In this document: piece after piece, positions 20,754 through 23,268 of the stretch
How the letters are laid out: every line of letters starts with the position of its first letter
How positions within the stretch are numbered: position 1 is the stretch's first letter
NCBI GenBank assembly: GCA_015493615.1
Contig: WGCV01000052.1
Span: 1-44,553 of the forward strand
Direction of reading: 5' to 3'
Origin: Melioribacteraceae bacterium
GTDB taxonomy: Bacteria; Bacteroidota; Ignavibacteria; Ignavibacteriales; Melioribacteraceae
DNA: 44,553 nucleotides
Position numbers and translations under genes: made by a program
Notes under the pieces: model-generated
What the model saw: the letters and a program-made list of their open reading frames with translations, nothing else
What the model was told of the DNA's origin: nothing
Databases searched by the model: none

Positions 20754-21064
20754 GGGGATGAAGAATCTCAAAACCGGTTTTCGTACAAATTCTAATTTTG
20801 AGATTCTTCGTTTTGTCTGACGACTTAATTCAAAATGACAACGAAGAACTTATTTTATAAAGTTCTCTTCAATGAAAAAATCAGTGCAAGTTCTAAATTC
20901 TACAATGTAGAACAATGATATATTTGTCATTCTGAATCCCGCTCCATGCGGGATGAAGAATCTCAAAACCGGTTTTCGTACAAATTCTAATTTTGAGATT
21001 CTTCGTTTTGTCTGACGACTTAATTCAAAATGACAACGAAGAACTTATTTTATATAGTTCTCTT
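20754..21064. repeat. Left part of a 195-bp tandem cruciform array
   Basis: The array begins with a partial unit (about 20754-20840) and one full unit (20841-21037), then the start of the next unit, which the IS interrupts. Each unit has an outer inverted repeat (GTCATTCTGAAT / ATTCAAAATGAC), a 14-bp inner stem (GAAGAATCTCAAAA / TTTTGAGATTCTTC), a small CCCGC/GCGGG hairpin and a spacer with AATGAAAAAATCAGTGC. The rest of the 20511-20753 gap is the upstream region of the dehydrogenase gene and holds a short GGATG-rich run at 20668-20702. Confidence 0.9.
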
Positions 21065-21141
21065 GAGTTTGGCATTTCACTAGAGAAAGGAAAAAAAGAA
21101 GAAAAAAATTAGGAAAAGAGGGAAATATTTTGCATATTGCG

Positions 21142-21159
21142 TCTAGTTATACAACTAGA
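21142..21159. promoter_or_regulatory. Palindrome in the IS leader, possible operator
   Basis: TCTAGTT-ATAC-AACTAGA is a perfect 7-bp inverted repeat ending just before the RBS (GAGAGGT) of the AbrB-like gene. It could be a binding site for the dimeric AbrB-like product, giving autoregulation, or a leader hairpin that limits read-through transcription. No experiment supports either. Confidence 0.4.
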
Positions 21160-21168
21160 GAGGTAAGT

Positions 21169-21384
21169 ATGGGATTTCCAACAAAAATTCAACTAATTAA
21201 CAGAACTAAAAGTCAACAGTGGTATGTTAATTTCCCTTCGGCAATTGCGCAAGCCATGGAATTTGACAAGGGAGAAATAGTCGAGTGGGTTATAGAAAAC
21301 AAGAACAAACTTATTCTTAAAAGAACTCCAAAGCAAAACAATACCGGAGAGAGTAAAAAAAAACTTCAAGACAAACAGTCTTAG
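21169..21384 (+). CDS. AbrB/SpoVT-like DNA-binding protein, first frame of the IS
   Basis: 71 residues from the ATG at 21169, which has a GAGAGGT RBS five bases upstream. A TTG at 21130 would add 13 residues but has no RBS. Residues 1-52 look like a swapped-hairpin AbrB/MazE domain: KIQLINRTKSQQWYVNFPSA, then IAQAMEFDKGEIVEWVI and a final strand KLILKRT. Such domains bind DNA as dimers. The tail is basic (ESKKKLQDKQS). Its last 28 bases overlap the transposase frame, which lies one base back, and the overlap starts in a run of nine A. It probably has two roles: a free DNA-binding repressor, and the N-terminal domain of a frameshifted transposase. I know no IS4-family archetype with this arrangement, although such pairs may exist in databases. 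Confidence 0.78.
   Translation: MGFPTKIQLINRTKSQQWYVNFPSAIAQAMEFDKGEIVEWVIENKNKLILKRTPKQNNTGESKKKLQDKQS
21346..21382 (+). other. Predicted -1 frameshift (or slippage) site of the IS
   Basis: Nine A residues (21355-21363) contain the classic A-AAA-AAA slippery heptamer in the frame of the AbrB-like gene. An SD-like GGAGAGAG (21346-21353) lies just upstream, as in other bacterial -1 sites. A small hairpin AAGAC/GTCTT (21368-21382) starts four bases downstream. The -1 frame is open from 21357 and becomes the transposase, while the zero frame stops at 21382. Transcriptional slippage on the A tract would give the same result. Confidence 0.7.
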
Positions 21385-22805
21385 AGGAGTTCGATTATTT
21401 ATTCTCTCAACTTGGAAACGCTTTTGCCCAATCACGAACAGCTCAACGAGCCCGTAAGATTGCTTACGGCTTACTTAATTGTAATTCTAAGCACACTCTT
21501 ACCGGATTGCTTACGGCTTCGGGAGAACAATTTAAGGACTGGTCTTCTGCTTATCGTTTATTCAAGGGAGAAAGAATGAACGTCGATGAGATTTTCTCGG
21601 TTATTAAAGAAAAACTAATTAAAGAGCAATTGAGCCAACAGCAAGCTATTTACGCCCACATGGATGATACTATTTTTAAGAAAACCGGGAAAAAAGTTAG
21701 CGGAACGGCATGGAGAAGAGACCCGCTCGGACCTCCATTCCATACTAACTTCATCTGGGGACAAAGATTCCTTCAACTCTCGATTGCTTTACCCGATAAT
21801 CAAGGCGCTTGTATTTCACGAGCCATTCCGGTTGATATTGATCATTGTCCTACGGCAAAGAAGCCACGGAAGAACGACTCACAAAGAGTTTGGGATGAAT
21901 ATAAGGAAGCCAAAAAGCAAGCTAACCTTAGTCTTAAGGGAGTTCAGAGAATCAAAGACTTACGAAAAAGTATCGATGATCTTGGAGCTGAAGAACGTCA
22001 ACTCGTTATTAGCGTTGACGGAAGTTATACCAATAGAACCGTAATCAAGGAGATACCCGAAAGGGTTACAATTATCGGACGTATTAGAAAAGATAGTCGT
22101 ATTTACGCATTGCCCGAAGAAAAACAGAATAGAGGCAGAAAAAGAATTTACGGCGAACTTCTTCCTACCCCCGAACAAATAAGAAAAAACAATGACATCC
22201 CTTGGCAACAAGTCGAAGCTTACGCCGCCGGTAAAGTCCATCGGTTTGACGTTAAGGTTCTTAAGAATATTCGCTGGCGAGCATCAAGTAAAAACAATGT
22301 GCAATTAGTGGTTATTCGTCCACTTGCTTACCGGCTTACGAAAAACTCACGGCTGCTTTACAGAAAGCCCGCCTACTTAATATGCACTGATCCGAACTTA
22401 GATATAAAAAAACTCTTACAAGCTTATCTTTGGAGGTGGGAAATTGAGGTTAATTTTAAGGAAGAAAAATCTTTGTTCGGTTCCGGCGAGGCTCATGTAA
22501 GGACTAAGGACGCCGTCGAAAAACTCCCGAGCTTTATTGTCGCTGTCTATGCCTTGTTATTACTCGCCGCTTTTAATACAGCTCAATACGACTCAATAAA
22601 CTCTTTACCCAGAGCTAAGTGGTATCCTAATAAAAAGTCTAACAGAAAAACTACCGGCGATATTTTGAATGTTATTAGAAGTCAACTATACGCTAAAGCT
22701 ATTGACATGAATTTTTCCCAATTCGTTAACTTACAACATAAGTACACGAACTCTAATAATTCTATGATTTCTGTCTTTTCTAATGCTTTTTATAATAGAA
22801 ATTGA
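21357..22805 (+). CDS. IS4-family DDE transposase, expressed in the -1 frame
   Basis: 482 codons are open, from the frameshift zone to TGA at 22803. Catalytic residues: first D in HMDDTIFKKTGKK, second D in LVISVDGSYTNR, and E in the complete IS4 signature Y-(2)-R-(3)-E-(6)-K at YLWRWEIEVNFKEEK (about 22425). The only conventional start candidate, TTG at 21507, has no RBS. It would also remove about 50 residues (EEFDYLFSQLGNAFAQ, RKIAYGLLN) that look like the usual N-terminal region of IS4/IS701 transposases. I therefore read the real product as a fusion of 65 AbrB-frame codons and 480 transposase codons, about 545 residues. The enzyme would cut and paste the element. No internal stops or missing catalytic residues are seen. 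Confidence 0.85.
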   Translation, partial: KKTSRQTVLEEFDYLFSQLGNAFAQSRTAQRARKIAYGLLNCNSKHTLTGLLTASGEQFKDWSSAYRLFKGERMNVDEIFSVIKEKLIKEQLSQQQAIYAHMDDTIFKKTGKKVSGTAWRRDPLGPPFHTNFIWGQRFLQLSIALPDNQGACISRAIPVDIDHCPTAKKPRKNDSQRVWDEYKEAKKQANLSLKGVQRIKDLRKSIDDLGAEERQLVISVDGSYTNRTVIKEIPERVTIIGRIRKDSRIYALPEEKQNRGRKRIYGELLPTPEQIRKNNDIPWQQVEAYAAGKVHRFDVKVLKNIRWRASSKNNVQLVVIRPLAYRLTKNSRLLYRKPAYLICTDPNLDIKKLLQAYLWRWEIEVNFKEEKSLFGSGEAHVRTKDAVEKLPSFIVAVYALLLLAAFNTAQYDSINSLPRAKWYPNKKSNRKTTGDILNVIRSQLYAKAIDMNFSQFVNLQHKYTNSNNSMISVFSNAFYNRN

Positions 22806-22816
22806 CCAAACTTGAG

Positions 22817-23225
22817 AGAACTTATTTTATATAGTTCTCTTCAATGAAAAAATCAGTGCAAGTTCCAAATTCTACAATGTAGAACAATGATATATTTGTC
22901 ATTCTGAATCCCGCAATCTGCGGGATGAAGAATCTCAAAACCGGTTTTTGCACAAATTCTAATTTTGAGATTCTTCGTTTCGTCTGATGACTCAACTCAG
23001 AATGACAACGATAAACTTTTTTTAAAAAAGTTCACTTCAATGAAAAAATCAGTGCAAGTTCCATATTCTACAATGTAGAACAATGATATATTTGTCATTC
23101 TGAATCCCACTCCATGCGGGATGAAGAATCTCTAAACATGTTTTCGTACAAATTCTAATTTTAAGATTCTTCGTTTTGTCTAACGACTCAATTCATAATG
23201 ACAATGAAGAACCTATTTTATTTTG
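22817..23225. repeat. Right part of the 195-bp tandem cruciform array
   Basis: Two further units follow the IS, at about 22817-23011 and 23012-23208 (period 196 bp), plus the beginning of another. Units share the outer GTCATTCTGAAT, the GAAGAATCTC stems and the AATGAAAAAATCAGTGCAAG spacer with the left part, so the IS was inserted into a pre-existing array. Nothing else is seen in this gap. Confidence 0.9.
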
Positions 23226-23268
23226 TTCTTTTTAACGAAAAGGGGGAAGGATTTCCCCCTGTAAATAT

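Follow-up and report, generated by a model that had tools for sequence, protein, structure and literature searches.

The OrfA proteins of IS1 and IS3 elements are DNA-binding proteins of the helix-turn-helix type, and a -1 frameshift joins them to the catalytic part as OrfAB. IS1634, which is related to IS4, has long direct repeats of variable length, which are not known to follow hairpins. The family table of PMC2266710 gives a duplication of 5-6 bp for IS1634. According to the same source, the absence of frameshifting is a hallmark of IS4 elements, whose duplications measure 7-13 bp, while IS701 elements are 1,400-1,550 bp long, duplicate exactly 4 bp of target and usually lack the tyrosine of the YREK signature (present in 4 of 27). 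Frameshifting is described for DDE_Tnp_1-type transposases (PMC3711429), and two-frame elements of the IS5 type are reported from Amoebophilus (PMC3196728). Runs of nine A's, or eight in some homologues, are described as transcriptional slippage sites in IS elements (PMC1088944); a single AAA_AAA_AAA is reported for E. coli coding sequence, 50-fold fewer than extrapolated (PMC5009743). IS1272 and TnSha1, of the IS1182 family, insert at hairpins of unrelated sequence that are often terminators, and remove the target hairpin without producing a duplication (PMC5678879, PMC4923244). The 2017 IS1272 paper also draws a possible route in which joining of the element ends at the 5' feet leaves a copy of the stem-loop on either side, and its available sections give no example (PMC5678879). 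The accessible portions of the open-access literature contain no account of an insertion sequence with an AbrB-transposase fusion or of an IS701 element with an AbrB domain. For palindromic, stem-loop or variable-length targets, this element type is undescribed among the matches listed from the same literature.

We analyzed a 44,553-nt stretch of DNA from a Melioribacteraceae bacterium (the window). It contains a real and conserved two-frame insertion sequence, present as one copy in the 3.15-Mb genome according to a genome search. Its features are as follows.

20845-20866, no strand: target hairpin left unoccupied in an adjacent host repeat (empty paralogous site), from the joined-flank match.
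21040-21061, no strand: target direct repeat on the left side (22 bp), AGAACTTATTTTATATAGTTCT, which forms an imperfect hairpin and matches 22817-22838 exactly.
21062-22816, plus strand: complete insertion sequence of 1,755 bp, from terminal inverted repeats and flanks.
21062-21073, plus strand: left terminal inverted repeat CTTGAGTTTGGC, common to relatives.
21079-21084, plus strand: ACTAGA inside the left end, identical to the operator half-site, from left-end comparison.
21142-21159, plus strand: palindrome TCTAGTTATACAACTAGA, likely operator of the AbrB-like protein, of the form TCTAGT-N6-ACTAGA in 12 of 12 lineages.
21169-21384, plus strand: OrfA, AbrB/MazE-like protein of 71 aa, from ORF reading and profile similarity.
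21354-21356, plus strand: TAA in the -1 frame, overlapping the start of the run and closing the transposase frame upstream; same in 7 of 12 lineages.
21355-21363, plus strand: A9 slippage site, read AAA AAA AAA in the OrfA frame.
21357-22805, plus strand: OrfB, DDE transposase reading frame, -1 relative to OrfA, from frame reading and profiles.
22804-22816, minus strand: right terminal inverted repeat GACCAAACTTGAG, from comparison of the ends.
22817-22838, no strand: target direct repeat on the right side (22 bp), matching the left copy exactly.

The 18 full copies that we collected range from 1,729 to 1,779 bp, and the transposase of the nearest relative, also from Melioribacteraceae (Ignavibacteriota in NCBI), is 94% identical to that of the window. 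We note that a host repeat of about 200 bp occurs several times in a row around the element, at 20777-20956, about 20972-21061 resuming at 22839-22928, 22944-23124 and 23140-23241. Each of these repeats has its own hairpin, and the element occupies one of them.

The initial annotation filed the element under IS4, and this assignment has to be revised. NF049999 (transpos_IS701_3) is the only NCBIfam model above its cut-off for the window transposase (185.4 bits, cut-off 170), and relatives L020 and L026 score 184.7 and 175.6; L062, which is cut short, falls below the cut-off at 162.5. The transposase also passes the Pfam DDE_5 cut-off. The best IS4 model reaches just 52.6 bits against a cut-off of 250, the IS1634 profile 19 bits (cut-off 100), and no IS1182 model is found among the nine NCBIfam matches. 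IS4 membership is ruled out by the profile scores, the frame arrangement and the duplication length; the window element has a -1 frame and a 22-bp repeat, at odds with the unshifted frames and 7-13-bp duplications of IS4 (PMC2266710). What it shares with IS4 is the Y-(2)-R-(3)-E-(6)-K signature in full, YLWRWEIEVNFKEEK, which we read by eye and which the annotation had also named. The tyrosine of this signature is allowed but uncommon in IS701, the element is longer than the IS701 size range, and its 22-bp repeat, like the 18-32 bp seen in 11 of 18 copies, departs from the 4-bp IS701 duplication. Judged by its sequence, the element fits neither the IS4 nor the IS701 description fully and belongs with IS701 by homology.

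The assignment of OrfA comes from sub-threshold similarity, which suggests an AbrB/MazE-like protein. Pfam PF04014 scores 19.7 bits against the window protein, below the gathering cut-off of 24.7, and matches 13 of 15 relatives at E up to 0.1 (best 3e-5); where bit scores were obtained for five relatives, four match at 17.9-20.9 bits, all below the cut-off. In NCBIfam searches with 15 AbrB-like rows, one member matches an AbrB model (E 0.084) and another an unrelated model (0.07). The AlphaFold model of this part has the order strand-strand-helix-strand-strand, as expected for the two beta-hairpins and intervening short helix of an AbrB/MazE domain, although it is weak (mean pLDDT 59.6), and a search of solved structures with the AbrB-like profile returns a single weak match (E 0.25). 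Proteins of the OrfA type are 65-71 aa long in the relatives. For the pair formed by the window and G004, OrfA has a dN/dS of 0.122 and OrfB one of 0.116; all other pairs are saturated or close to it, and an OrfA value is absent for three of six pairs.

The two frames are arranged as first reported: an AbrB-like frame at 21169-21384, a run of nine A's (21355-21363) and, in the -1 register, a transposase frame that opens at 21357. The OrfA frame stops six codons past the run. The TAA at 21354-21356, which takes the first two A's of the run, shuts the -1 frame, and this frame is then open to 22805, so a transposase with the conserved N-terminal part needs a frame change within 21357-21381. Apart from this run, the window has just one stretch of nine A's or T's, which lies at 1377-1385 between listed ORFs.

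The annotation's proposal, a -1 shift at this run that couples the AbrB-like frame to the transposase, is supported by the other copies, in which the A tract, the overlap relation and both frames are conserved. The transposase lies in the -1 frame at 23 of 27 related loci with both parts readable, at two in +1 and at two in frame 0, as scored with separate profiles for the AbrB-like part and for the N-terminus of the transposase (28 loci, both found in 27); duplicate records of the same places, L045 (AbrB-like match of 51 bits) and L022, which keeps A9 but gives no AbrB-like match, are outside this set, and L007 is counted as -1 on a transposase match of just 24 bits. A -1 copy is present in 16 of 19 genomes. 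The +1 exceptions are L056 (A9 then T) and L028, which has A8 and is one of seven full copies in G163, the six others having A9. The -1 relation is kept with weaker or unusual sites in L027 (A6) and L055 (AAAAAG). We note that L055, from G643, reads AAA AAG AAA in place of the run and that the element is interrupted elsewhere. A9 and both readings, in the same frame relation, also occur in G246 and G163, where the transposases are 46-47% identical; this places the arrangement beyond chance.

Across 12 lineages the run is A9 in nine and A8 in three, with an in-frame A_AAA_AAA in all; the comparison keeps 12 of 13 rows (G033, matched at the wrong A run, is left out) and includes G1328, cut short at 412 aa. 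The three A8 lineages come from the Armatimonadota search, and elsewhere these elements use AAG more than AAA. From each element's own AAA/AAG use, the probability that all run lysines are AAA is 3.4e-8, a value that assumes independent lineages, and related elements are not fully independent. The SD-like stretch GGAGAGAG and the AAGAC/GTCTT hairpin that the annotation placed beside the run are both present in the window, but they extend no further than the sister lineage: of the 11 other lineages only G004 has a similar SD-like sequence (GAGGG), and among the other lineages compared the hairpin recurs in G004 only. The 70 nt downstream of the window run fold no better than shuffled sequences (z -0.49), and 11 of 12 lineages behave like shuffles (z -0.64 to 0.92; the L003 stretch starts one base early), with G492 as the exception (z -2.38). 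No stimulatory fold or SD-like element common to the 12 lineages was found. The constant -1 direction suggests ribosomal slippage and the bare long run suggests polymerase slippage; the fusion may arise by either, as the data fit both alike.

As in IS1 and IS3, a DNA-binding OrfA would be joined to a catalytic part by slippage, and the A9/A8 runs resemble those of the IS elements treated by Baranov in 2005 (PMC1088944). The window transposase differs from those of IS1 and IS3 in coming from an unrelated group, and its AbrB/MazE-like domain replaces the helix-turn-helix type.

The palindrome TCTAGT-N6-ACTAGA lies 1-31 nt upstream of the OrfA-type start codon in all 12 lineages, with similar palindromes in several decayed copies. 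It resembles a putative autoregulatory site, and it is plausible from the sequence that free OrfA acts as a repressor. ACTAGA recurs within the first 30 nt of the element in 8 of 12 lineages (G000, G004, G246, G569, G492, G607, G1157 and G1319) and is absent from the left end of G163, G485, G650 (ACTAGT) and G1328 (GCTAGA); CTAG is found near position 19 of the left end in 10 of 12 (G1157 read by eye). The fusion may bind at the left end. A half-site at both ends is not supported, since CTAG occurs in the right end of G492 only among the 10 lineages with a right end. A sigma-70 scan of window positions 21050-21200 gives neither promoter-like nor terminator-like sequences. In L057 a terminator-like hairpin with a T tail lies between the left end and OrfA (1219-1253), and similar hairpins were seen by eye in several relatives; that of L057 could shield the transposase from outside transcription.

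The more unusual property of the element, and a new finding, is the duplication of a whole hairpin as its target. A hairpin abuts the element at 44 of 48 junctions, compared with 166 of 2,760 positions taken as controls from these flanks (6%). The test takes stems of at least 6 pairs lying no more than 3 nt from the element and draws 36 junctions from the 18 full copies and 12 from one-ended copies; not all 48 are independent, as L014 and L037 represent a single element, the right flank is common to L029 and L030, and the flanks of L026 and L029 are reciprocal. Of the 18 full copies, 11 are flanked by exact direct repeats of 18-32 bp, whereas none of 3,600 shifted control junction pairs has a repeat of 10 bp or more. 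Examples of targets are AGAACTTATTTTATATAGTTCT in the window, CATCAGGATCATTTGATCCTGATG in L050 and GGGCCCGGCCGTGAGGCCGGGCCT in L060; the repeat of L052 is a terminator-like hairpin of 32 bp. Repeat length tracks hairpin span in the 11 copies (r 0.97, difference 0-2 bp, with 1-2 nt taken off the repeat length in three copies whose repeat also matched the element ends), and a fixed staggered cut would not give such lengths. Like IS1272 and TnSha1, then, these copies insert at hairpins of unrelated sequence, but 11 of 18 keep the hairpin on both sides as an exact repeat.

An arrangement of two separate genes would explain the frames without recoding: OrfA would be a stand-alone repressor, the transposase would be made alone, either starting at the internal TTG 21507 or through coupling to the OrfA stop, and the A run would be incidental. 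Possible starts do exist near the N-terminus in G492 (ATG, 17 nt past the run), G246 (GTG, 14 nt) and G1319 (GTG, 16 nt), and the transposase of AbrB-less relatives has its own start. In the window, however, the first ATG, GTG or TTG of the transposase frame is TTG 21507, as the initial annotation had observed; it lies 143 nt past the run, and the first starts of G004 (143 nt), G650 (110 nt) and G485 (146 nt) likewise fall inside the conserved N-terminal part. Separate genes would also leave the run, its phase and the constant -1 relation unexplained, and we consider them very improbable. The annotation had further allowed that the split frame might reflect a mutation or a sequencing artefact. 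In an alternative of this kind, A9 would be a decayed or mis-sequenced A10 of an AbrB-transposase gene normally read in one frame, as in Algoriphagus L014/L037. Read-through in a single frame is indeed seen in L037 (A10) and L018 (A7), the two frame-0 loci, but both are decayed and broken elsewhere. Long uninterrupted OrfB frames accompany A9 or A8 in 12 lineages, and A9 stands in six of seven copies in G163, a single-contig genome; this explanation is hardly credible. A fusion made by slippage at the run remains our reading of the two frames.

The hairpin repeats, for their part, could pre-exist, with the element landing between tandem hairpins or recombining into them. Hairpins of this kind occur at the 6% of control positions given above, and a matching repeat is lacking in 7 of 18 full copies. 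L026, L029, L054 and L061 each have two different hairpins; L028 has two opposed, nearly identical hairpins on its sides, the left one missed by the test; L032 has one hairpin by the test; and the decayed L035 has only 6 bp, ATCTAT, and no hairpin. Two empty sites with a single hairpin, one of them inside a coding frame, speak against tandem hairpins. The window flanks joined with one hairpin match 20777-20956 at 96.7% over 180 bp without gaps, and two further host repeats at about 89%. The L050 flanks joined in the same way give an uninterrupted reading of 202 aa, and the joint falls inside an Sde0182_C domain (89.8 bits); among the 11 repeat-flanked copies, such a domain-bearing reading was sought for L050 alone. 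Moreover, the repeats lie 0-2 nt from the element, and their sequence varies from site to site. L026 and L029 lie on contig 1 of G163 at about 326 kb and 385 kb, on opposite strands and with reciprocal hairpin flanks. Such flanks are expected after inversion by recombination between copies, which suggests two normal insertions that recombined; that recombination also accounts for the other repeat-less copies is a guess. Pre-existing tandem hairpins are thus very improbable, and duplication of the hairpin upon insertion is the reading that we carry forward.

Elements of this type are uncommon in the genomes searched. Matches were found in 6 of 58 genomes of relatives and in 4 of 395 from the phylum, and two families gave 2 of 11 and 2 of 92. 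For the Algoriphagus genome, the family gave 9 of 295 and the order 4 of 390, none of the latter new, and the phylum of a Chthonomonadaceae genome (Armatimonadota by NCBI) gave 5 of 291; these counts include the own genome or centre where it is in the set, and the E-value limits differ between searches, with only matches under each limit taken further. No viral relatives were found in IMG/VR, searched with the protein and with alignment A2, and none in the phage records searched.

Eight plasmid relatives (L066-L073) have no AbrB-like match at E up to 1. Five of them, from Sinorhizobium (L066, L069-L072), are 1,514-1,515 bp long with one frame and CTNAG-type flanks, which are the same on both sides in L070 and L072; the annotated CDS is 1,383 bp in L066, L069, L071 and L072. 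These IS701 copies resemble the window element in having a homologous DDE transposase above the IS701_3 cut-off and differ in their single frame, in showing no AbrB-like match and in their targets, with hairpins at 0 of 10 junctions. Because the AbrB-bearing copies lie at hairpins and the five Sinorhizobium copies do not, hairpin choice and the small domain go together in this sample. A tree of 17 rows sets the 12 AbrB-bearing transposases apart on one side of a branch with 98/97 support; the AbrB-less L063 adjoins them, and the tree is rooted at its midpoint only.

Comparison among the copies brings out the conserved frames, run and palindrome, the hairpin targets and a repeat length that follows the hairpin. 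On these grounds we hold it likely that the window carries a complete two-frame insertion sequence that makes an AbrB-transposase fusion by slippage and duplicates its hairpin target. Translation of OrfA would yield the small AbrB/MazE-like protein. At the A9/A8 run some products would enter the -1 frame, either when the ribosome slips on A_AAA_AAA or when RNA polymerase adds one A, and the resulting fusion of about 545 aa would probably be the active form of the transposase. On its own, the small protein probably represses by binding the palindrome immediately upstream of its start, and the fusion probably uses the same AbrB-like domain on the element's own DNA. An extruded hairpin would be recognised, with the strand-joining positions at the hairpin. 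On balance we lean slightly towards a broader reading, in which this clade of DDE insertion sequences would read its target by shape: the extruded hairpin would be found, joined at the 5' feet of both stems and duplicated whole (18-32 bp as seen). This trait would accompany an AbrB-like domain that is added only by A8/A9 slippage, also faces a palindromic operator and may read the hairpin.

These copies would be natural examples of the structure-directed outcome of transposition that PMC5678879 drew as possible, in which a hairpin, often terminator-like, is left intact on both sides. They would link an altered choice of target to a domain that the enzyme acquires only through recoding, and both can be tested in one small element. 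For the IS701 group, the finding would add a two-frame, slippage-dependent mode of expression.
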